NCBI GenBank assembly: GCA_022775005.1
Contig: JALFJR010000102.1
Span: 1 to 37,180, forward strand
Reading direction: 5' to 3'
Length of the DNA: 37,180 nt
Origin: Parabacteroides sp.
GTDB lineage: Bacteria > Bacteroidota > Bacteroidia > Bacteroidales > Tannerellaceae
This document shows, piece by piece, positions 21,339 through 37,180 of the stretch. The translations under genes were made by a program, and so were the position numbers. Numbering within the stretch: the stretch's first letter is position 1; each line of letters begins with the position of its first letter. The notes beneath the pieces were generated by a model, which made no database searches, was not told the origin of the DNA, and worked only from the letters and a program-made list of their open reading frames with translations.

Positions 21339-22847
21339 TTATCGAGCGACCTGCTTGATCCAACGGAACAGTTCGTCTAACGCATAGTCTCCTGAGTGCG
21401 GACGGTTCCAAGGCAATTTGAAATCTACATCCTTATCCACAGATCGAAGCATCAACGCAAGATTGATGGGCACGGGAAAAGCGGTGTCTCTATCACGTGC
21501 ACCATGGCGAATATACCAGTGAGGCGCAACCGACGATTGGCTATCCCGAATGAAATTCATCGGATTCATGATGCGTACCCGCTCACGAGTCTCCTCATCA
21601 ATGGTAGCAGAGGCATTGCTCGTGGCTTGGCTCAACGAATAGTCCGTAAAGTTCACACTACTCCCCTGAGCATCACCGAACTCCTCATTCTCAGGACTGG
21701 GCCTTGCACCAGCAACACCTTGGCTATCAAATGCAGGTGGTGTCTTCAATGCAATAGTAGAAACCACATAGTTCAAATAACGAGGCAGATCCACATCCAG
21801 CACATACTCACCTACCTCTCTCGACGGCATACGCATCGGACGAGCCGCTGCACCTTCCGGTTGTGGTTTAGGCTGACGCTGCACCCCATCTACGGGCGCT
21901 TGAAAACGCTTGGTGCCACTAAAGGTGAATCCTAAACTATCAGGAATGGTCGCCCCGGCATCTTTCGCCTCCTGCGCTGAGCGAATCAATAGTTTCTTCA
22001 GATAATCCAAGTAGTTATCCGCATTCAGCGTATGTCCCTCCTCATCCTTTAAATTTAAGCTGGCTAAATAATCTGGATAAAGGGCGGCTAACTGCTTAGA
22101 GACCGCTACCTGTGCATCCGTCAGCGGACGGCTCACGTTGTTGGTACAGCCATACAACCACTCATAAGCCATATCGGCATGATCAAGGTCGATAATCGGA
22201 CAGTAGCAAACCGCCGCATAGATGTCATCGCGGGTATCCGCCGCACCCATCTCCTTCAGATAGTTCGCATAAGCCGGGTGATTGCCGGTCGCGCCCAAAA
22301 GGGAAGACATCGCTCCGCCTGCACTGGTGCCATCGGTAATGATGCGTTCCGCATCACCCGGCATCTCCTTGTCGAACAGCCTTAGATAACGAACAGCCGC
22401 CTTCAAGTCTAACAAACCTCGAGGGGCACGTCCGGCGTACACCTTGTTCCCTTTGGCATCTGTCACCGCTGAGTTACGGCCACGGGCACCCGGAATCACA
22501 ACCACATAGCCCTCTGCCAACGCACGCCCGGAAGCATCCGTGGCATCAATGTTTTGCGGTTTTGACGCCATGTAGCCACCGACATAGTTGCGCATGAAGA
22601 TCGGCGTGTGCTGATCAGCGCCCTGAGGCACAAACACATTCATGTACTGATAAGTGGAATCCTCAATATGCGTAACATAATAGAGGTTTGTGTAAGCAGT
22701 ATAGTGCACGATTTGGCCCTGAGGCATCGTGACAGACCCCGCCACGCCTTTTGAAGCATAGAATGTCAGTTTCGGCATCGGCTTCGTCGCTGCCACAGCA
22801 GATATACAAGCTACCATAGCGAGCGCAGTTACGAAATGTTTACGCAT
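21339..22847 (-). CDS. Secreted alpha/beta hydrolase (subtype B tannase-like)
   Basis: 502 residues from ATG 22847. The longer reading frame would start at 22940, upstream of the -7 box at 22880-22873, so it is rejected. The signal peptide is MRKHFVTALAMVACISAVAA. The catalytic serine is in TDGTSAGGAMSS (Ser 175), followed by LLGATGNHPAYANYL. The likely Asp is in HGARDRDTAFPV and the His in NRPHSGDYALDELFRW near the C-terminus. The G-x-S-x-G-G form and overall layout resemble the subtype B tannase/feruloyl-esterase-like hydrolases; the natural ester substrate is unknown. The Pro/Gln-rich insert around residues 320-350 is a low-complexity linker. A divergent AraC-type regulator gene lies upstream and may control it. 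Confidence 0.75.
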   Translation of the reverse strand: MRKHFVTALAMVACISAVAATKPMPKLTFYASKGVAGSVTMPQGQIVHYTAYTNLYYVTHIEDSTYQYMNVFVPQGADQHTPIFMRNYVGGYMASKPQNIDATDASGRALAEGYVVVIPGARGRNSAVTDAKGNKVYAGRAPRGLLDLKAAVRYLRLFDKEMPGDAERIITDGTSAGGAMSSLLGATGNHPAYANYLKEMGAADTRDDIYAAVCYCPIIDLDHADMAYEWLYGCTNNVSRPLTDAQVAVSKQLAALYPDYLASLNLKDEEGHTLNADNYLDYLKKLLIRSAQEAKDAGATIPDSLGFTFSGTKRFQAPVDGVQRQPKPQPEGAAARPMRMPSREVGEYVLDVDLPRYLNYVVSTIALKTPPAFDSQGVAGARPSPENEEFGDAQGSSVNFTDYSLSQATSNASATIDEETRERVRIMNPMNFIRDSQSSVAPHWYIRHGARDRDTAFPVPINLALMLRSVDKDVDFKLPWNRPHSGDYALDELFRWIKQVAR

Positions 22848-22872
22848 TATAATAATATTAATATTGTCGTAG

Positions 22873-22880
22873 CAAAAGTA
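22873..22880 (-). promoter_or_regulatory. -7 element TACTTTTG of the hydrolase gene
   Basis: Exact consensus on minus, 26 bases upstream of ATG 22847; it decides the start codon. Confidence 0.6.
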
Positions 22881-22976
22881 AGCAATTTTCTTTTCCTCCA
22901 ATGCAGGCATCCTCATCTTTTTCCCGAAATCACTGGTCAATCTTTCACCATATAGCGCAATGAGAGCCTTTTTTAG

Positions 22977-23916: not shown

Positions 23917-23924
23917 TACTTTTG
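23917..23924 (+). promoter_or_regulatory. -7 element TACTTTTG of the Phe/Tyr operon
   Basis: Exact TAnnTTTG match, 25 bases before the leader peptide ATG. The -33 region (TTTATG) is poor. Confidence 0.6.
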
Positions 23925-23949: not shown

Positions 23950-24024
23950 ATGCATCGATTTAGCTTTACATATTACTTTTATTACTTTTACTTTAGCAAG
24001 GTGAAGGCAGGAGTTTGTATGTAA
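23950..24024 (+). CDS. pheL: Phe/Tyr leader peptide of the attenuator
   Basis: A 24-codon ORF: MHRFSFTYYFYYFYFSKVKA followed by GVCM and TAA. Residues 4-15 contain five Phe and five Tyr codons, far beyond chance. The operon behind it makes both phenylalanine and tyrosine. Its stop codon lies six bases after an antiterminator strand and 38 bases before a terminator stem. This is the layout of PheL-type leader peptides: ribosome stalling at Phe or Tyr codons when charged tRNA is scarce should favour read-through. The symbol is given by function; the peptide need not be homologous to enterobacterial PheL. Confidence 0.85.
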   Translation: MHRFSFTYYFYYFYFSKVKAGVCM

Positions 24025-24095
24025 AGCATTCAAAACAGAATTTGTAAGTGAATAAATGATATAAAGTCCTGCCGTATAAACGGTGGGACTTTTTT
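24006..24095 (+). promoter_or_regulatory. Attenuator: antiterminator and terminator of the Phe/Tyr operon
   Basis: The terminator stem is AAAGTCCTGCCG (24063-24074) / CGGTGGGACTTT (24081-24092), a 12-pair RNA stem including two G-U pairs. Its loop is TATAAA and a T run follows. The left arm can instead pair with GGCAGGAGTTT (24006-24016), which is complementary to AAAGTCCTGCC except at one position. That upstream strand lies inside the last codons of the leader peptide. A ribosome reaching the leader stop would cover it and allow termination; one stalled at the Phe/Tyr block would leave it free to form the antiterminator. Confidence 0.85.
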
Positions 24096-24127: not shown

Positions 24128-24973
24128 ATGAAAAAGAAAGTAGCCATACAAGGTATAGCGGGTTGTTTTCACGACATCGCAGCCCGGAATTATTACGAGG
24201 GAGAAGAGATTGAGATCATTCCATGCATCACCTTCCCGGATGTGATAGCGGCTGTTAAGCGAGACCCCTCTGTTGTCGGAATGATGGCCATCGAAAATAC
24301 GATCGCCGGCAGTTTGCTGCAGAATCACGAGCTGATTCGTGAGAGCGGACTAAAGGTGACGGGCGAATACAAGTTACGCATCTCCCATTCCTTGGTTGCC
24401 CTGCCAGGCTCCTCGATCCACGACATCACTGAGGTCAACTCCCACCCGATTGCCTTGATGCAATGCATGGAATTCCTCAATACGCTCCCCAACGCCAAAG
24501 TGGTGGAGAAAGAGGATACCGCATTGAGTGCCAAATGGATCGCTGATAACAAGCTCGAAGGCCATGCTGCCATCTGCGGCAAACTGGCAGCAGAGATCTA
24601 CGGCATGGAGGTCTTGGCAGAGGGCATCGAGACCAACAAACGCAACTTCACCCGTTTCCTGTCCATCGCCGACCGTTGGGTAGCCGACGAAATCATGCGT
24701 GGAGTCGATAAGAACAAGTCATCGCTGGTGTTCGCCGTGCCCCACAGCTCAGGCAGTCTCTCTAAAGTGTTGGCCGTGCTCTCTTTCTACGACATGAACC
24801 TCACCAAGATCCAATCCCTGCCCATCATCGGTCGCGAGTGGGAATACCTCTTCTATGTCGATCTGACATTCACCGATTTCGCACGCTACCAAAAGGCATT
24901 GGATGCGATTCTTCCATTGACAAAAGACTTAAAAATATTAGGCGAATATGCAGAAGGAAAACAAAGTGTGTAA
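24128..24973 (+). CDS. pheA: Prephenate dehydratase
   Basis: A 281-residue enzyme converting prephenate to phenylpyruvate, the Phe branch. The N-terminal catalytic domain shows VAIQGIAGCFHDIAARNYY, MMAIENTIAGSLLQNHELIR and the active-site motif NFTRFLSIA (the usual TRF). A C-terminal ACT domain (SSLVFAVPHSSGSLSKVLAV, LTKIQSLPIIGREWEYLFYV, containing ESRP-like residues as QSLPI) is the expected Phe-binding regulatory part. No chorismate mutase domain is fused here; it is on the DAHP synthase instead. First enzyme gene after the attenuator; its end overlaps the aminotransferase start by 26 bases. Confidence 0.95.
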   Translation: MKKKVAIQGIAGCFHDIAARNYYEGEEIEIIPCITFPDVIAAVKRDPSVVGMMAIENTIAGSLLQNHELIRESGLKVTGEYKLRISHSLVALPGSSIHDITEVNSHPIALMQCMEFLNTLPNAKVVEKEDTALSAKWIADNKLEGHAAICGKLAAEIYGMEVLAEGIETNKRNFTRFLSIADRWVADEIMRGVDKNKSSLVFAVPHSSGSLSKVLAVLSFYDMNLTKIQSLPIIGREWEYLFYVDLTFTDFARYQKALDAILPLTKDLKILGEYAEGKQSV

Positions 24974-26132
24974 GATTACACCCGCTGACCGTGTAGGCAG
25001 CATTCAGGAATACTACTTCTCCAAGAAATTGAAAGAGGTAGCCGAGATGAACGCTCAAGGCAAGAACGTCATCAGCTTAGGCATTGGCAGCCCCGACCTC
25101 CCTCCTTCCGAGGAGACCATCGAGACCCTATGTGAACATGCGCACCAAGCGAATGAGCATGGCTATCAACCCCATATCGGTATCCCCGAGTTACGTCAAG
25201 GATTCGCTGACTGGTATCGGACGTGGTACGGTGTGGAGCTGGATCCGAAGTCGGAGATCCAACCGTTGATTGGCTCCAAAGAGGGTATCCTGCATATCTC
25301 GCTTGCCTTCTTGAACCCTGGCGATGGCGTGCTGATCCCCAATCCGGGTTATCCCACCTATAGCTCTGTCAGCAAATTAGTAGGTGCCAAACTGATCTAC
25401 TACGATCTGTTGGAAGACAAAGGCTGGCAGCCTGACTTCGATGCCTTGGAACAGATGGATCTGAGCGGCGTGAAGATGATGTGGACCAACTACCCCAACA
25501 TGCCGACCGGAGGCAACGCCACTCCTGAGCTTTATGAGCGCATCGTGGATTTCGGTCGCCGACATGGCATCTTGATCTGCAACGATAACCCCTACAGCTT
25601 TATCCTCAACGAACATCCGCTGAGCATCTTAGCCGTTCCGGGTGCGAAGGAGACCTGCATCGAGCTGAACTCCATGAGCAAAGCGCATAACATGCCAGGC
25701 TGGCGTATGGCTATGCTCGCCTCCAACGCCCAGTTCGTGCAATGGATCTTGAAGGTGAACAGCAACATTGAGTCAGGCCAATTCAAGCCGATGCAGTATG
25801 CAGCCGCCAAGGCTTTGCAAGCAGATAAGAGCTGGTATGACGGCATGAATCGGGTCTATCGCAGTCGCCGAGACCTGGCTGGCCAGATCATGGAGGCTTT
25901 GGGTTGCACCTACGATGAGCAACAGGTCGGCATGTTTCTCTGGGGACGCATTCCCGACTCCGCCGAGAGCGCAGAGGCCATTGCCAACAAGGTGCTCTAT
26001 GAGGCACGGGTATTTCTTACGCCGGGATTCATCTTCGGTAGCCGAGGCGAACGCTACATCCGCATCTCCCTCTGTTGTAAGAGCAAGGCCCTGCAGGAGG
26101 CATTGAATCGAATAAAAACATTGAACAAATAA
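24948..26132 (+). CDS. Class I/II aminotransferase (aromatic amino acid biosynthesis)
   Basis: A 394-residue PLP enzyme. The PLP lysine is in NSMSKAHNMPGWR (Lys 245). NPGYPTYSSVSKLVGAKLIY, the NYPNMPTGG Asn loop and the ISLCC-type Arg motif RYIRISL near the C-terminus are all present. By position it should transaminate phenylpyruvate and 4-hydroxyphenylpyruvate to Phe and Tyr; the fold-type sequence is also close to LL-diaminopimelate- and alanine-type enzymes, so the call rests on the operon. Its start lies inside pheA (26-base overlap). Confidence 0.85.
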   Translation: MQKENKVCKITPADRVGSIQEYYFSKKLKEVAEMNAQGKNVISLGIGSPDLPPSEETIETLCEHAHQANEHGYQPHIGIPELRQGFADWYRTWYGVELDPKSEIQPLIGSKEGILHISLAFLNPGDGVLIPNPGYPTYSSVSKLVGAKLIYYDLLEDKGWQPDFDALEQMDLSGVKMMWTNYPNMPTGGNATPELYERIVDFGRRHGILICNDNPYSFILNEHPLSILAVPGAKETCIELNSMSKAHNMPGWRMAMLASNAQFVQWILKVNSNIESGQFKPMQYAAAKALQADKSWYDGMNRVYRSRRDLAGQIMEALGCTYDEQQVGMFLWGRIPDSAESAEAIANKVLYEARVFLTPGFIFGSRGERYIRISLCCKSKALQEALNRIKTLNK

Positions 26133-26156: not shown

Positions 26157-27233
26157 ATGGAAATGAAAATTGAACCGTTAGCGTTGCCGGGTATCGACAC
26201 CCAGCGTCCGATTGTTATCGCCGGACCGTGCAGCGCAGAGTCAGAAGAGCAAGTGATGGAAACAGCCAAAGGTTTGGCAGAGAAAGGCGTGAAAATCTTC
26301 CGTGCAGGTATCTGGAAACCCCGTACGAAACCAGGAGGATTCGAGGGCATCGGCACATTAGGCTTGCCTTGGCTGAAACGAGTAAAACAGGAAACAGGTA
26401 TGCTGGTCGCTACGGAGGTAGCTACGAAGGATCATGTCTTTGAGGCCCTGAAAGCAGGCATCGACATCCTGTGGATTGGTGCGCGCACCACGGTGAACCC
26501 CTTCGCTGTACAGGAGATCGCTGACGCCTTGAAGGGTGTGGACATCCCCGTATTGATCAAGAATCCGGTGAGCCCCGACTTGGAATTGTGGATCGGCGCT
26601 TTCCAACGTCTCTATGGAGCAGGCATCCATCGTTTGGGTGCGATCCATCGAGGATTTAGCTCTGACGATAAGAAAATCTACCGCAACCTCCCGCTCTGGC
26701 ACATCCCCATCGAGTTGCGTCGCCGTTTGCCGGAGTTGCCTATCTTCTGTGACCCCAGCCATATCGGTGGTAAGCGTGAGTTGGTAGCTCCCCTCTGCCA
26801 GCAGGCAATGGACTTGAGCTTCGACGGCTTGATCGTAGAGTCGCACTGCACCCCCGATTGCGCATGGAGCGACGCCGCACAGCAGGTAACGCCCGACGTG
26901 CTCGACTATGTCTTGAATCTCCTGGTGATCCGTGATAGCTCACAGACAACGGAGAACTTGACAGCCCTGCGTCGCCAGATCGACGGCATCGACGAGCAGC
27001 TCCTCACGCTGCTGGCCAAACGTATGCGCATATCCAGAGAGATCGGTGTTTATAAGAAAGAGCACAACATGCCGATCCTTCAGTCCCCGCGCTACAGCGA
27101 GATCCTGGAGAAACGCTCCAGCATGGGCTCACAGATGGATCTGAACCCGGACTTCGTGAAGGAGGTCTTGAAGAGCATCCACGAGGAGTCTGTCCGTCAG
27201 CAGATGATTGTCATGAACGAGGAACAAAAGTAA
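26157..27233 (+). CDS. Bifunctional DAHP synthase / chorismate mutase
   Basis: 358 residues, two enzymes in one chain. Residues 1-265 are a class I-beta 3-deoxy-7-phosphoheptulonate synthase (PIVIAGPCSAESEEQVMETA, FRAGIWKPRTKPGGFEG, IGARTTVNPFAVQEIAD, CDPSHIGGKRELV, DGLIVESHCTPDCAWSDAAQ). Residues about 275-350 are an AroQ-type chorismate mutase (LRRQIDGIDEQLLTLLAKRM, RISREIGVYKKEHNMPIL). It supplies the first step of the shikimate pathway and the chorismate-to-prephenate step, explaining why neither pheA nor tyrA here carries a mutase domain. The fusion may give feedback control of the synthase by prephenate, as known for related fusions. Confidence 0.93.
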   Translation: MEMKIEPLALPGIDTQRPIVIAGPCSAESEEQVMETAKGLAEKGVKIFRAGIWKPRTKPGGFEGIGTLGLPWLKRVKQETGMLVATEVATKDHVFEALKAGIDILWIGARTTVNPFAVQEIADALKGVDIPVLIKNPVSPDLELWIGAFQRLYGAGIHRLGAIHRGFSSDDKKIYRNLPLWHIPIELRRRLPELPIFCDPSHIGGKRELVAPLCQQAMDLSFDGLIVESHCTPDCAWSDAAQQVTPDVLDYVLNLLVIRDSSQTTENLTALRRQIDGIDEQLLTLLAKRMRISREIGVYKKEHNMPILQSPRYSEILEKRSSMGSQMDLNPDFVKEVLKSIHEESVRQQMIVMNEEQK

Positions 27234-27243
27234 GCAAGCACCG

Positions 27244-28017
27244 ATGAAGATATTGATTTTAGGCGCAGGCAAAATGGGTTCGTTCTTCACCGACCTCCTC
27301 AGTTTCGACCATGAGGTGGCCGTCTTGGAGAGCGATCCCAAGCGGATGCGCTTCATCTACAATGCCCTCCGCTTGCAAAAGCCGGAGGAGGTGGCTGAGT
27401 TCAAACCGGAATTGGTCATTAACTGCGTGACGTTGAGCTACACGATTGAGGCCTTTAAGTCGGTGATCCCCTACCTACCCGAGACCTGTATTCTGTCGGA
27501 TATTGCCTCGGTGAAGACCCACCTGAAGGAGTTCTATGAGGAGAGTGGCTTCCGTTACGTCTCCACCCACCCGATGTTCGGTCCTACCTTTGCCAACCTC
27601 GGCCAGTTGGAGAACGAGAACACAATCATCATCTCTGAAGGTGACCATCTCGGCAAGATCTTCTTCAAGGATGTCTATGCCAACTTGCGGTTGCACATCT
27701 GCGAATACACCTTCGAGGAGCACGACCAAGTGGTGGCCTACTCTTTGGGTATTCCTTTCGCCTCAACGATGGTCTTCGCAGCCACGATGAAACATCAAGA
27801 TGCCCCGGGTACCACCTTCAAGCGTCACATGAGCATCGCCCGCGGCCTGCTCTCTGAGGATGACTACCTTTTGACAGAGATCCTCTTCAACCCGCGCACA
27901 CCGCATCAGATCGAGCGCATTCAAGAGGAATTAGCGATCTTGCAAGAGATTATCAAGGAGAAGGATTCCGCCAAGATGAAAGAATATCTGACGAAGATTC
28001 GCAAGCATATCGAGTGA
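27244..28017 (+). CDS. tyrA: Prephenate dehydrogenase
   Basis: A 257-residue NAD(P)-dependent enzyme making 4-hydroxyphenylpyruvate for tyrosine. The Rossmann motif is KILILGAGKMGSFFTDLLS at the start. DIASVKTHLKEF and STHPMFGPTFANLGQLENEN are the catalytic region motifs of TyrA. The protein is short and lacks an ACT domain, so feedback control probably lies elsewhere. It starts 10 bases after the DAHP synthase gene and is the last gene of the attenuated operon. Confidence 0.93.
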   Translation: MKILILGAGKMGSFFTDLLSFDHEVAVLESDPKRMRFIYNALRLQKPEEVAEFKPELVINCVTLSYTIEAFKSVIPYLPETCILSDIASVKTHLKEFYEESGFRYVSTHPMFGPTFANLGQLENENTIIISEGDHLGKIFFKDVYANLRLHICEYTFEEHDQVVAYSLGIPFASTMVFAATMKHQDAPGTTFKRHMSIARGLLSEDDYLLTEILFNPRTPHQIERIQEELAILQEIIKEKDSAKMKEYLTKIRKHIE

Positions 28018-30248: not shown

Positions 30249-30282
30249 GCCATTGTTTCTAAATCAACATGACAAAAATCAC

Positions 30283-30290
30283 TACATTTG
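30283..30290 (+). promoter_or_regulatory. -7 element TACATTTG of cas9
   Basis: Exact consensus on plus, 34 bases away from the divergent tracrRNA box, so the two promoters share their upstream region. It places the transcript start downstream of the earlier ATG (30269) and supports ATG 30320 as the cas9 start. Confidence 0.6.
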
Positions 30291-30319
30291 CCCAAAAATA
30301 TTTCTTTAATAGGACTACC

Positions 30320-33300
30320 ATGGATGAAAAATACATTTTAGGTCTCGACCTGGGCACAAACAGCATCGGTTGGGCTGTCATCAAACAAATCATGCAGGAG
30401 AATGGTATAAGTTCGCTGAGCGGCATCATCGATGCAGGAAGCCGAATTATTCCTATGGATGCGGCCATGCAAAGTGATTTTGCCAAAGGCAATTCCATTT
30501 CTCAAACCGCTGACCGTACACGCTACCGTGGGGTTAGACGTTTGCGAGAACGACAACTTTTAAGACGTGAACGTTTGCATCGAATGCTTGATATAATGGG
30601 ATTTCTACCTCTCCATTATCAAAACGCACTCACCCGATATGGTAAGTTCAAAGAGCAAACAGAATGCCTATTGCCTTGGACAAAAGACGCATTAGGAAAT
30701 GCGATTTTCCTCTTCAAAAACAGCTATGAGGAGATGTTGCGCCTTTTTTGGCAAGCTCATCCCGAACTCATGCAGCAACAATTAAAAGTTCCCTATGATT
30801 GGACGATATATTATTTACGTAAAAAAGCCTTGACTGAAGCGATCACAGGACAAGAGTTAGCTTGGATATTGCTTCACTTCAATCAGAAACGAGGATACTA
30901 CCAAACACGAGGAGAGGAACAAGAAGAAGACAAAAGCAAAAAAGAGGAATATTATGCCTTAAAAGTGATAGATATACAGGATAGTGGCGACAAGAAAGGA
31001 AAAGACATTTGGTGGAATGTGCTTTTGGAAAACGGAATGGTGTATCGTCGCCCATCTAAAGAGAAACCCGATTGGATCGGAAAAATCAAGGAATTTATTG
31101 TCACCACACAACTTAATCCTGACGGTACTCCAAAAGCAGATGCCAAAGGAGAGATCAAACAATCTTTCCGCATGCCGAATGAGAATGACTGGAGTCTTGT
31201 CAAAATCAAGACACAAGCCGACATACAGCAATCACACCTAACCGTAGGAACATATATCTTCCAAGCGTTGCTTGCCAATCCGAAACAAAAAATCAAAGGG
31301 AAGCTGGTGCGCACCATCGAGCGTGACTTCTATAAAGAGGAACTTCGACAAATACTCGAAGCACAGAAACAATTCATTCCTCAATTGAACGATCGGGAGC
31401 TTTATACCCGTTGCATACAGGAGCTCTATCCACAAAATGAAGCCTACCGCTCATCCATTGCGAATCGAGACTTCACCTATCTATTGATGGATGATATTCT
31501 TTTTTATCAACGTCCGTTGAAGAGCAAGAAATCATTGATCAGCGAATGCCCCTACGAACGGCACGCTTTTATCAATGAACAAGGAGAGCCAGCCACCAAA
31601 GCATTGAAATGCATAGCCAAGTCACATCCGCTCTATCAAGAGTTCCGTCTTTGGCAATGGATTTATAACCTGCGTATCTTCAAATCACAGAGGGATGCGC
31701 AGGGCCGTGCACTCGATGATGTGGATGTCACTGAGCAATTCCTGCCAGACGAAGAATCAAAAGCAATCCTATTCGACTACCTCAACAATTTATCCACAAT
31801 CACTCAGAAAGAGCTCTTTGAAAAATATTTCAAGTTGAAAAAGCCCGCAGGGAAGAATGCCGAGCTCCCCTACAGGTGGAACTATGTGCAAGACAAAGCT
31901 TATCCATGCAACACGACACGTGGTGATATCCGTAGCAGACTGCTCAAGAAGGGCATTGACAGCACATTCCTTACCGGCTCTATCGAGCAACATCTTTGGG
32001 AAATACTGTTTAGCGTGAGCGACCGGCAAGAGTTACGCAAAGCATTGGCCAAGTTCGCAATGCGCTACCAGTTAGATGAAGCTTTTGTCGAAGCGATGGC
32101 CAAGTTTCCTCCTTTTGAGCCAGACTATGGAGCCTATTCAGCCAAGGCCATTAAAAAGCTATTGCCCTTGATGCGCATGGGACACCATTGGCATTCAGAA
32201 GACATAGATGAGGCTACCCAACAACGCATGCAGAAAATCATCGACGGAGAGGTAGATGAAGGCATACGCCAACGGGTAAGAGAGAAGGCGATCCATCTCT
32301 CTTCCATCGAGCAATGCCATGGCCTTCCACTGTGGTTGGCTTGCTATTTGGTTTATGACCGGCATAGTGAAGCGAGCGACACGAACAAATGGAACAATCC
32401 GGCTGATATAGATCACTATCTGCAACAATTCCGTCAGCACTCACTGCGAAATCCGATTGTGGAACAGATTATCATGGAAACCTTACGCACGGTTAGGGAT
32501 ATTTGGACCAAAGTGGGGCATATTGATGAGATTCACATTGAGATGGGCCGTGAATTAAAGAACCCAGCCGACAAAAGAGCAAAGATGACAGAGCGGGCGC
32601 TGCAAAATGAAAACGCAAACCTCCGCATCAAAGCCTTATTAACCGAGTTCATGAATCCAGCATTTGAGATTGAGAACGTGCGTCCCTTCTCTCCCAGTCA
32701 ACAAGAACTATTGCGCATTTACGAAGACACCGCCTTGAATAGCGTAGAAACATTGGAAGAGGACATCGCTGATATCATTAAGAAATTCGCTCAGGCAGAC
32801 GTGGCTAAACGGCCAACACATTCCGAAGTGATGCGTTACAAGCTATGGCTCGAACAGCATTACTTGTCTCCTTATACCGGGCAGCCTATCCCCTTGTCCA
32901 GACTCTTCACGACTGATTATGAGATAGAACATGTTATCCCGCAATCACGCTACTTTGATGATTCGCTATCCAACAAGGTCATTTGTGAAGCAGCGGTCAA
33001 CAAGTTGAAAGATAATGCACTTGGCTATGAGTTTATTAAACAGCATCATGGCCAAATGGTACCGATAGGCGGAGGTCGCACTGTCCCAATTTTAGAGACT
33101 GACAGCTATTGTCACCTCGTGGAGCAGACCTACAAGAACAATCGTGCCAAGATGAAGAAGTTGCTCATGGAAGATATACCCGCTGAATTCATTGAACGGC
33201 AACTCAACGACAGCCGCTATATCAGTAAACTGGTGAAGGGGCTACTTTCCAACATCGTGAGAGAACCTGATGAGCAAGAAGCCACTTCCAAGCATGTCAT

Positions 33301-34855
33301 TGTCTGCACAGGTAGCGTAACTGATCGTCTAAAACAGGACTGGGGGATTCATGACGTGTGGAATCACCTCATCCTGCCTCGTTTCGAACGTATGAATGCA
33401 TTGACTGGGACAACCATGTTTACCACCCTAAGTGCGGCTGGACATTGCATTCCCGACATGCCTTTAGCGTTGCAAAAAGGATTCAACAAAAAGCGTATCG
33501 ACCATCGTCATCACGCCATGGATGCGATTGTCATTGCTTGCACCACCCGCGATCATGTCAATTTACTGAGTAACGAAGCAGCTTCACCCAAGAGTAACCA
33601 AAATCGCCATCAACTCTCGCACAAGTTACGTAGATACGAAGAGGTTACTACTATCCAAAATGGACAACCTAAGAAACTAATGGTTGCCAAGGAGTTTGTA
33701 ATGCCTTGGCCATCCTTCCCCGAAGATGTAGCAAAAGCACTGGGCGATATTATTATTAGCTTCAAACAAAACCTAAGGGTCATTAATAAAACGTCCAACC
33801 ATGCTTTACGTTTTGTAGAAGGCAAGAAAAAGCCTATAGCGCAAACAATGGGCGATAGTTGGGCTATTCGTAAGTCGATGCATAAAGAAACGGTTTTCGG
33901 CGAGGTCAATCTGCGTAGGATAAAGACAGTGGCATTAAAAGAGGCCCTACTTCAACCTCAGCGAATCGTGGATCGTGACCTAAAAGAAAAAATCAAGGCT
34001 ATGCTGGCCTTAGGCTATAACGAGAAACAAATGAAAGCCTACTTCGCAGAAAATGCCGATACTTGGCAAGATGTAAACTTGAAGAAGATTGAGGTCTATT
34101 ATTTCACGAAAGAGACTTCTGATCGCTATTTTGCGACTCGAAAGGCCATTGATACCTCCTTTACAAAGGATTTCATTCAAACAAAAATTACGGACACCGG
34201 CATTCAACAAATCTTGCTGCGCCATTTGGAGCGATACGACAATAACGCCGAGTTGGCCTTCTCGCCCGATGGTATTGACGAGATGAACCGAAATATCCGA
34301 GAACTGAACAAGGGGCATAACCATCAGCCTATTTTCTCTGTCAGAGTGTACGAGAAAGCGGATAAGTTCACGGTTGGACAAACCGGAAACAAATCCAAGA
34401 AATTCGTAGAGGCCGCCAAAGGGACCAATCTATTCTTTGCGGTCTATGAAACGACTATCGAAGATAAAAAAACAGGCAAAACGGAAAAGAAACGTAGCTT
34501 CCGCACCATTCCTTTGCATGAAGCCATCTCGAAGATGAAACAGGGTTTGCCACTCGACGAGCAAGCACTCTTTATCCTTTCGCCCAATGATTTGGTGTAT
34601 CTGCCAACGGAGGAGGAGATCATGAAGGGAGAAATACAAATGCCTTTAGACAAAAGCAGGATTTACAAAATGGTATCTTCCAATAAATTTCAGGCTTTCT
34701 TCATAAACGAAAGAGTAGCCGCAATGATTCAAGATAAATTTGAATATTCGCCTCTTAATAAAATGGAACGAGCCATCACGGGTGAAATGATAAAAGAGAC
34801 CTGTATTCCTCTAAAAGTCGATCGATTAGGCAACATTATTCACATAGGAGTATAA
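30320..34855 (+). CDS. cas9: CRISPR-associated endonuclease Cas9 (type II-C)
   Basis: 1511 residues from ATG 30320; a longer frame adds 17 residues but starts upstream of the promoter box. RuvC-I is YILGLDLGTNSIGWAVI with D10. The Arg-rich bridge helix is at 65-92 (DRTRYRGVRRLRERQLLRRE). RuvC-II is HIEMGRELKNP with E741. HNH is DYEIEHVIPQSRYFDDSLSN with H871. RuvC-III is DHRHHAMDAIVIACTT with H1065 and D1068. All catalytic residues are present, so it should be active. At about 1500 aa it is large for II-C (Neisseria and Campylobacter enzymes have about 1000-1080) but usual for Bacteroidota. It is followed four bases later by cas1; no csn2 or cas4 is present, which sets the subtype. Confidence 0.97.
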   Translation: MDEKYILGLDLGTNSIGWAVIKQIMQENGISSLSGIIDAGSRIIPMDAAMQSDFAKGNSISQTADRTRYRGVRRLRERQLLRRERLHRMLDIMGFLPLHYQNALTRYGKFKEQTECLLPWTKDALGNAIFLFKNSYEEMLRLFWQAHPELMQQQLKVPYDWTIYYLRKKALTEAITGQELAWILLHFNQKRGYYQTRGEEQEEDKSKKEEYYALKVIDIQDSGDKKGKDIWWNVLLENGMVYRRPSKEKPDWIGKIKEFIVTTQLNPDGTPKADAKGEIKQSFRMPNENDWSLVKIKTQADIQQSHLTVGTYIFQALLANPKQKIKGKLVRTIERDFYKEELRQILEAQKQFIPQLNDRELYTRCIQELYPQNEAYRSSIANRDFTYLLMDDILFYQRPLKSKKSLISECPYERHAFINEQGEPATKALKCIAKSHPLYQEFRLWQWIYNLRIFKSQRDAQGRALDDVDVTEQFLPDEESKAILFDYLNNLSTITQKELFEKYFKLKKPAGKNAELPYRWNYVQDKAYPCNTTRGDIRSRLLKKGIDSTFLTGSIEQHLWEILFSVSDRQELRKALAKFAMRYQLDEAFVEAMAKFPPFEPDYGAYSAKAIKKLLPLMRMGHHWHSEDIDEATQQRMQKIIDGEVDEGIRQRVREKAIHLSSIEQCHGLPLWLACYLVYDRHSEASDTNKWNNPADIDHYLQQFRQHSLRNPIVEQIIMETLRTVRDIWTKVGHIDEIHIEMGRELKNPADKRAKMTERALQNENANLRIKALLTEFMNPAFEIENVRPFSPSQQELLRIYEDTALNSVETLEEDIADIIKKFAQADVAKRPTHSEVMRYKLWLEQHYLSPYTGQPIPLSRLFTTDYEIEHVIPQSRYFDDSLSNKVICEAAVNKLKDNALGYEFIKQHHGQMVPIGGGRTVPILETDSYCHLVEQTYKNNRAKMKKLLMEDIPAEFIERQLNDSRYISKLVKGLLSNIVREPDEQEATSKHVIVCTGSVTDRLKQDWGIHDVWNHLILPRFERMNALTGTTMFTTLSAAGHCIPDMPLALQKGFNKKRIDHRHHAMDAIVIACTTRDHVNLLSNEAASPKSNQNRHQLSHKLRRYEEVTTIQNGQPKKLMVAKEFVMPWPSFPEDVAKALGDIIISFKQNLRVINKTSNHALRFVEGKKKPIAQTMGDSWAIRKSMHKETVFGEVNLRRIKTVALKEALLQPQRIVDRDLKEKIKAMLALGYNEKQMKAYFAENADTWQDVNLKKIEVYYFTKETSDRYFATRKAIDTSFTKDFIQTKITDTGIQQILLRHLERYDNNAELAFSPDGIDEMNRNIRELNKGHNHQPIFSVRVYEKADKFTVGQTGNKSKKFVEAAKGTNLFFAVYETTIEDKKTGKTEKKRSFRTIPLHEAISKMKQGLPLDEQALFILSPNDLVYLPTEEEIMKGEIQMPLDKSRIYKMVSSNKFQAFFINERVAAMIQDKFEYSPLNKMERAITGEMIKETCIPLKVDRLGNIIHIGV

Positions 34856-34859
34856 CGTT

Positions 34860-36163
<1,304 letters not shown>

Positions 36164-36192: not shown

Positions 36193-36231
36193 AACAACAG
36201 GATATTAGCTAAATACCAATATCCTGTTGTT
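36193..36231. repeat. 14-bp inverted repeat overlapping the first CRISPR repeat
   Basis: AACAACAGGATATT (36193-36206) and AATATCCTGTTGTT (36218-36231) are perfect complements around an 11-base loop. The right arm includes the first six bases of repeat 1. It lies at the boundary between cas2 and the array; it may stop array transcripts that run toward cas2 or mark the array end. No T run follows on either strand. Confidence 0.75.
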
Positions 36232-37180
36232 AATCACCTTTCAAAGGTAAGAATTTCTAAGCAAATCACAACAATATGGTTGGTCTTTTTGTAACTTATG
36301 TGGTTGTTAATCACCTTTCAAAGGTAAGAATTTCTAAGCAAATCACAACTGAGCTCACCCTTGCCCTTGAATGTCACGGTTGTTAATCACCTTTCAAAGG
36401 TAAGAATTTCTAAGCAAATCACAACCTTGAGCAAAAGATTGCAGAGTATGAAAAGTTGTTAATCACCTTTCAAAGGTAAGAATTTCTAAGCAAATCACAA
36501 CTAGTAGTGATTCGCTTAGCTTCATTAAAAGTTGTTAATCACCTTTCAAAGGTAAGAATTTCTAAGCAAATCACAACACCGTTTGCCCTATTTCGTGCGC
36601 TTATGTAGTTGTTAATCACCTTTCAAAGGTAAGAATTTCTAAGCAAATCACAACATTATTTTTTCATCTAATTTTGTCGGGTGCGTTGTTAATCACCTTT
36701 CAAAGGTAAGAATTTCTAAGCAAATCACAACACGCTTATTATCCCTTATCAACTTACCAAAGTTGTTAATCACCTTTCAAAGGTAAGAATTTCTAAGCAA
36801 ATCACAACAAGTTTCAAGGCCGTCAGCTACAGTTTAATGTTGTTAATCACCTTTCAAAGGTAAGAATTTCTAAGCAAATCACAACAACAAAGCTAACAGA
36901 GGCACAGCACCGAAGTTGTTAATCACCTTTCAAAGGTAAGAATTTCTAAGCAAATCACAACTCTGAGGTGAGTGAGCTTGGTCTGACGGTTGTTGTTAAT
37001 CACCTTTCAAAGGTAAGAATTTCTAAGCAAATCACAACAAATTGACGATGAGCATTTTATCGTGACTCGTTGTTAATCACCTTTCAAAGGTAAGAATTTC
37101 TAAGCAAATCACAACAAATTGACGATGAGCATTTTATCGTGACTCGTTGTTAATCACCTTTCAAAGGTAAGAATTTCTAA
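36226..37180 (-). CRISPR. Type II-C CRISPR array, 12 complete repeats plus one cut by the window edge
   Basis: The 47-base repeat, given on plus, begins GTTGTTAATCACCTTTCAAA and ends CTAAGCAAATCACAAC. Starts are at 36226, 36303, 36379, 36455, 36531, 36608, 36685, 36762, 36839, 36915, 36992, 37069 and 37146 (partial, 35 bases). All repeats look identical over the visible part. Spacers are 29-30 bases, 12 in the window; spacers 11 and 12 are identical. The strand is given as minus because the reverse form starts GTTGTGATTTGC, as in other Bacteroidota II-C repeats, and because it pairs with the tracrRNA. The internal palindrome ACCTTT-C-AAAGGT lies in the middle of the repeat. The array continues to the right of the window. 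Confidence 0.98.
36242..36271 (-). promoter_or_regulatory. Promoter embedded in the CRISPR repeat (example: repeat 1)
   Basis: Read on minus, the repeat has TTG at its positions 2-4 (36271-36269), then 19 bases, then TACCTTTG at positions 24-31 (36249-36242). This equals the Bacteroides promoter consensus TTTG-N19-21-TAnnTTTG except that the first T is a G. The expected start is about 7-9 bases further, within the last bases of the repeat before the next spacer. The same positions occur in every repeat. Function is predicted, not shown. Confidence 0.6.

Follow-up and report, generated by a model that had tools for sequence, protein, structure and literature searches.

The phenylalanine and tyrosine operon in the Parabacteroides DNA analyzed here (a stretch of 37,180 nucleotides, referred to in full as the window) is very probably controlled by a classical ribosome-mediated transcription attenuator of dual Phe/Tyr specificity, as judged from sequence comparison and modeled ribosome stalling. 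Attenuation had been put forward for this element in an earlier sequence-only reading, and it is supported here by three covarying helices, by the geometry of simulated stalling and by conservation among relatives. The same reading had described a 24-codon open reading frame (ORF) with five Phe and five Tyr codons, which was recovered with that composition (Table 1), and had related these codons to genes behind it that make both amino acids, an assignment upheld by the identification of the operon genes and by the comparison of leader codons with gene content given below. The leader hairpin and the -7 promoter element are additions of the present analysis to the features described before.

Table 1. 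Elements of the leader region and genes of the operon, with their positions in the window.
Feature	Position	Strand	Basis or remark
-7 promoter element TACTTTTG, consensus TAnnTTTG	23917-23924	+	Read from the sequence
Leader peptide ORF MHRFSFTYYFYYFYFSKVKAGVCM	23950-24024	+	24 codons and TAA; five Phe, five Tyr; conserved in relatives
Leader hairpin (segments 1:2)	23963-24027	+	Fold, covariation
Segment 2, left arm of the antiterminator	24006-24020	+	Fold, compensatory changes
Segment 3, right arm of the antiterminator and left arm of the terminator	24059-24073	+	Fold, covariation
Intrinsic terminator (segments 3:4), followed by Ts	24063-24092	+	Fold, covariation
pheA, prephenate dehydratase	24128-24973	+	Pfam PF00800, 1.2e-51
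Class I/II aminotransferase	24948-26132	+	Pfam PF00155, 2.7e-59
DAHP synthase fused to type II chorismate mutase	26157-27233	+	Pfam PF00793 and PF01817
tyrA, prephenate dehydrogenase	27244-28017	+	Pfam PF02153, 7.9e-9

The Leader and Its Genomic Surroundings

The four enzymes of the operon (prephenate dehydratase, aminotransferase, DAHP synthase/chorismate mutase and prephenate dehydrogenase) together serve the synthesis of Phe and Tyr; pheA is also matched by the NCBIfam prephenate dehydratase model (4.9e-57, under the curated cut-off). Most of the Phe/Tyr codons of the leader sit in the 5' arm of the leader hairpin. The upstream neighbor of the leader encodes an AraC-family regulator (Pfam), beside which a gene for a subtype B tannase-like esterase lies on the opposite strand (21339-22940). 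Further along, the window holds a 1528-aa ORF that resembles a type II CRISPR nuclease and is followed by ORFs like Cas1 and Cas2 (30269-36163; labels given by sequence impression) and, after these, an array of 47-nt repeats spaced 76-77 nt (36226-37180), in which the successive repeat-spacer units 36992-37068 and 37069-37145 are identical.

The element TACTTTTG precedes the leader ATG by 33 nt, and the pattern that it fits, TAnnTTTG, has been described as the -7 consensus of Bacteroidota (PMC6847099, PMC9723704). The 60 nt preceding the leader start contain this pattern in 66 of 68 close loci, against 2.0 expected from mononucleotide shuffles, as well as in 24/31 order-level, 10/19 class-level and 0/2 other-phylum loci. 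A generic scan for sigma-70 promoters and terminators listed nothing at the leader, presumably because the sigma-70 boxes sought are ill-suited to the phylum and because the T-run rule starts counting only past the stem, which has by then taken up the first Ts.

Across both strands of the 3.14-Mb genome, a pattern of seven consecutive Phe/Tyr codons (TWY x7) gives three matches, two of them overlapping in the Phe/Tyr leader and the third within a pyrimidine tract at another site, and the reversed control pattern gives two. The codon run is by itself rare in the genome and not decisive; conservation is the stronger evidence.

Conservation and Distribution

Short ORFs rich in Phe/Tyr codons, as the sequence-only reading had suggested looking for before pheA in other Bacteroidales, are widespread. 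The PheA of the window finds its best matches among named genomes in Parabacteroides, and the close set comprised 80 named loci with the nearest PheA, 77 of which have at least 100 nt upstream (L059, L081 and L095 have less). By a criterion of at least six Phe/Tyr in 10 codons, a leader was found in 70 of these 77 loci, two others being cut within the leader by a contig end (L047, L106), and none was found in the remaining five (L085, L099, L100, L105, L108). A terminator follows every one of the 71 close leaders (the 70 relatives and the window), which carry a mean of 10.3 Phe/Tyr codons, with at least three of each in 70 of them; the corresponding controls yielded leaders in 5/71 cases on the reverse strand and in a mean of 2.0/71 after dinucleotide shuffling. 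The commonest runs are YYFYYFYF, YFYFYFYF, YFFYYFYF, and FFYFYF, and Phe and Tyr therefore interchange, the purity of the runs being no independent evidence since they were excised for Phe/Tyr richness. In L100, a locus of the Dysgonomonadaceae where the leader ORF was not found, a terminator-like hairpin is kept before pheA.

At larger distances, PheA searches covered 118 genomes of the phylum and 79 of the order, with a match in 102 and 36 of them, respectively (the genome of the window counted in), and upstream regions were read for 34/35 order-level, 24/24 class-level and 21/77 other-phylum genomes, that of L200 being too short. Leaders rich in Phe, Tyr and Trp codons are present in 32/34, 20/24 and 2/21 of these regions, respectively (reverse-strand controls: 3, 0, and 0; shuffle means: 1.7, 1.3, and 0.15), that is, in 52 of the 58 order- and class-level regions, and were not found in L179, L208, L217, L221, L231, and L232. 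Two of the four class-level misses (L217, L221) have, roughly 3.5 kb farther upstream, a leader and terminator preceding a DAHP-synthase gene; in the genomes of L208, L231, and L232, nothing similar was found. In the distant class members L336 and L337, an aromatic-rich leader (MLITAAIYFTFFYFYFRSQ...) and a terminator stand before a DAHP-synthase gene upstream of pheA. Outside the family, a terminator of -8 kcal/mol or better follows 50 of 54 leaders, and the antiterminator duplex beats at least 95 of 100 shuffles in 42 of 52, falling short of the 5% level in the other 10.

A covariance model of the element (R1), which holds no pheA information, gave many weak matches in searches of the order and the phylum. 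The picture agreed with that of the PheA survey: among the 59 loci read from the best matches, 40 have both an aromatic-rich leader and a downstream pheA or aminotransferase gene, 19 have neither leader nor aromatic gene (two of them, L120 and L144, lying at contig ends outside the scan interval), and none has only one.

Three Exclusive RNA Helices

Folding agrees with the pairing that had been read between GGCAGGAGTTT (24006-24016), within the ORF end, and the left arm of the terminator, the partner being 24063-24073. The core of this antiterminator is GGCAGGA:UCCUGCC (24006-24012 with 24067-24073), beyond which follow one mismatch, UUU:AAA and more weak pairs; with segment 4 omitted, the stretch alone folds with -22.6 kcal/mol, and z is -6.1 for the tightest choice of stretch, -4.6 for a longer one. 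The terminator has a stem of 13 pairs closed by a 4-nt loop ahead of the Ts (-18.5 kcal/mol, z -5.4 over 200 shuffles), and the whole leader, including leader hairpin and terminator, reaches -44.5 kcal/mol (z -5.6). Leader hairpin, antiterminator and terminator are mutually exclusive.

All three helices covary in alignment A1, which holds 67 of the 71 close leaders (L038, L054, L056, and L069 were left out as near-duplicates). Cells changed on both sides of a pair number 29 in the antiterminator, 42 in the terminator and 90 in the leader hairpin, against shuffled means of 5.9, 12.7, and 37.4, and exceed every one of 500 shuffles in each helix, whereas the number of pairs with a both-sides change is reached by 1, 3, and 8 of the 500, respectively; the aligned rows being related, these shuffle counts are not probabilities. 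A control with the partner slid by 1-3 columns, which retains the relatedness, leaves the pairing of all three helices far above it (for the antiterminator, 92.6% of cells paired against 41-50%). The compensatory base pairs to which the sequence-only reading had looked in close relatives are thus present in both antiterminator and terminator, those of the antiterminator at alignment columns 82:169, 83:168, and 85:166, and its key pairs are distributed as G-C 59/A-U 4 (4 unpaired), G-C 54/A-U 13 and A-U 57/G-C 6/G-U 4. Within the codon run (columns 36-54) gaps are of 3 or 6 columns, as expected of a run of translated codons.

A conserved ORF might also encode a functional hydrophobic microprotein, the terminator merely ending its small transcript, and the C-terminal KVKAGVCM is similar in many Parabacteroides loci. 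This tail, however, falls on RNA segment 2; in Tannerella, some leaders (e.g., L063, L078) end short of the tail and yet keep the GGCAGGA nucleotides outside the ORF, and the residues other than Phe and Tyr vary widely in distant relatives, so we give the microprotein hardly any credence. Strong alternative RNA structures ahead of a biosynthetic operon would likewise suit a riboswitch, T-box or protein-binding leader that senses the amino acid or tRNA directly, with the ORF incidental, but we hold this to be very unlikely: no Rfam family is matched at its gathering score in the window or in 16 relatives, segments 2 and 3 are separated in A1 by a spacer of variable length and sequence, and the codon content of the leader appears to track gene content. 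Seven Rfam matches at a relaxed E-value (PyrR, 0.036; GibS, 0.077; others), all below gathering scores, were rejected as chance hairpins.

Stalling Geometry and Proposed Mechanism

For the attenuator, a stalled ribosome was modeled by removing all RNA as far as 12 nt beyond the A-site codon, the figure quoted for a stop codon (PMC4833913), and folding the exposed RNA once segment 3 is out. In the window, the probability of the antiterminator, P, stays at 0.98-1.00 for stalls anywhere in codons 1-14, drops to 0.86 at codon 15, which encodes the last Phe, and to 0.43 at codon 16, and is 0.00 from codon 17 to the stop; in this model, the antiterminator could form while a ribosome is halted in codons 4-15, the interval that covers the Phe/Tyr run, and could not once the ribosome stood at codon 17 or later. 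The mean P over the 71 close relatives is 0.97 for stalls within the run and falls to 0.00 at the stop. An in-run stall gives P above 0.5 in 71/71 close, 26/28 order-level (two do not exceed this value) and 19/19 class-level leaders analyzed, and at the stop P is below 0.2 in all of them, a fall that is partly built in, since segment 2 was sought only after the run, its completion within about two codons not being so.

Folded at equilibrium, the full-length RNA favors the terminator even with a stalled ribosome (P at most 0.08), and the switch must therefore be kinetic, with timing playing a part. With no ribosome, the leader hairpin of the window suppresses the antiterminator (P 0.16); P lies below 0.5 in only 19/71 close, 11/28 order-level and 4/19 class-level leaders, so equilibrium folding gives no strong support to termination by default when the leader is untranslated.

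In the mechanism that we propose, RNA polymerase would begin transcription a short way past the -7 element, and the leader would be translated by a ribosome. With charged tRNA-Phe and tRNA-Tyr plentiful, the ribosome would reach the stop codon and cover segment 2, segment 3 would pair with segment 4, and transcription would terminate before pheA. With either charged tRNA in short supply, the ribosome would stall in the codon run and cover segment 1, leaving segment 2 free to pair with segment 3 once this is transcribed; the terminator would then not be formed in time and the operon would be read. Translation of the ORF, stalling, the efficiency of termination and the response to starvation are the steps that we infer from these elements.

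The ribosome could conceivably act otherwise, through Rho-dependent polarity, for instance, or by coupling translation to pheA, and leader ORFs shortly before genes have been proposed as aids to reinitiation, Bacteroidetes included (PMC4833913). The coupling peak proposed there for Bacteroidetes is nonetheless at 11-14 bp, attenuation being put at distances of at least 40 bp (PMC4833913), and in the window 103 nt separate the leader stop from the pheA start, with the intrinsic terminator between them; we regard such a route as scarcely plausible beside attenuation.

Leader Codons and Gene Content

The codons of the leader could be compared with the genes that follow in 60 stretches, 57 read downstream of pheA and three downstream of leaders before an aminotransferase gene. 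Four genomes, from four different families, have a pheA without detectable aat, aroG or tyrA beside it, and the leaders of these solo genes contain Phe/Tyr codons in the proportions 9/0, 7/0, 6/1, and 6/0 in their richest 12 codons (L181 is without a scored terminator, and the duplex of L196 is not significant). Operon leaders, in contrast, have at least two Tyr codons in 49 of 50 cases and a single one in the other, a split attained by 5 in 316,251 arrangements if all are taken as equally likely and relatedness is ignored. Leader codons thus appear to follow gene content. Genome G141 has a separate aat-aroG-tyrA cluster with its own Tyr-rich leader (MIKNISVFAYFYYYFYFSKK), and in G131 a tyrA-like gene (a weak match, 24% identity) stands before aroG with the leader MNNTFGYYAFYYYFFYNN, a hairpin and a T run; no such leader was found near either aroG copy of G206, and the aroG copy of G151 starts at a contig end.

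Trp codons occur in 3/71 close, 8/32 order-level and 10/20 class-level leaders (relatedness of rows ignored), an enrichment which suggests that all three aromatic amino acids may be sensed; this is possible because DAHP synthase serves Trp synthesis too. In class-level leaders the Trp codons lie in or beside the Phe/Tyr run (e.g., L218, L226, L228). A pattern for runs of His codons matched 51 times, and none of the 12 loci read showed a short His leader that was convincing.

Two successive leader-terminator units precede pheA in 7 of the 58 order- and class-level regions (L175, L184, L201, L204, L206, L209, L229), that of L201 being doubtful as its reverse strand also yields a leader, and tandem units are found in L126, L128, L132, and L143 among six R1 loci with a distant pheA (L126 belongs to the same genome as L175, and L143 to that of L206); these counts are without a control of their own, the single-leader shuffle rate being around 5%.

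On balance, we think it likely, with appreciably less confidence than for attenuation itself, that the element is an ancestral attenuator of the class Bacteroidia, retained in front of the aromatic operon, evolutionarily re-tuned in its leader codons whenever the controlled genes change, sometimes doubled in tandem, and run by the ribosomes of a Shine-Dalgarno-lacking phylum. Re-tuning, as part of this ancestral reading, would account for Phe only before solo pheA, Phe and Tyr before the full operon, Tyr-rich leaders before tyrA-aroG, and Phe, Tyr and Trp in other families. Genomes with a split operon would then constitute natural experiments, in which the sensor codons change with the genes controlled.

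Comparison With Known Systems

In the open full-text literature, which takes in few subscription papers and no supplements, no title or abstract among the matches listed dealt with this Phe/Tyr leader in Bacteroidales. The work of Lopatovskaya et al. in 2010, cited in PMC4833913, may cover related cases. Short ORFs in long 5' UTRs of B. thetaiotaomicron have been described as reminiscent of leader peptides (PMC7366714). For Flavobacterium psychrophilum, clues to leader-peptide attenuation before amino-acid operons in general are mentioned, together with a conserved structured 5' element at pheA that is said to have no Rfam hits (PMC9723704); that element shares gene and phylum with ours, the likeness being one of description, which comes there without its sequence, and the class-level leaders found here contain Phe, Tyr and often Trp codons.

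Within the same phylum, Bacteroid-trp (RF01692) has been considered a likely cis-regulatory RNA of Bacteroidetes (PMC2864571). A copy occurs in the genome of the window, elsewhere than the window (77.3 bits), with a 19-aa leader containing WWW, a folded leader RNA and, ahead of trpB, a hairpin resembling a terminator; it differs from the present element in its Trp codons and trp gene, and the window is without a match at the Bacteroid-trp gathering score. The Trp leader peptide MRTFVNTYWWWRSLQLTKS (L113, 1553-1609 on the minus strand of contig C53, before trpB) follows a plan like that of the Phe/Tyr leader. The claim that attenuation of this kind is not well described in Bacteroidota apparently holds for the element, which matches no Rfam family, and not for the principle, which is not new given Bacteroid-trp and the hints from Flavobacterium psychrophilum.

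The attenuator is real and well conserved, apparently little described, and would work in the ordinary way. It offers a concrete candidate regulator for matching aromatic amino-acid synthesis to supply in gut and environmental Bacteroidota, and its spread points to leader-peptide attenuation as a regular trait of the class Bacteroidia, not confined to enteric bacteria. It also raises the question of transcription-translation coupling in a phylum without Shine-Dalgarno initiation, such sequences being said to be lacking in Bacteroidota (PMC6847099).

A further functional parallel lies in the enterobacterial pheA leader (RF01859, Phe_leader), with a like plan before the same gene and 18.1 bits in the window against a gathering score of 55 (E 1.1), so that the window is not a member of this Rfam family. 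In the enterobacterial system, pheA is preceded by a leader peptide rich in Phe and by an antiterminator and a terminator that form as alternatives; the leader of the window, by comparison, mixes Phe and Tyr codons ahead of an operon that serves both amino acids, and stands behind a promoter of the Bacteroidota type.
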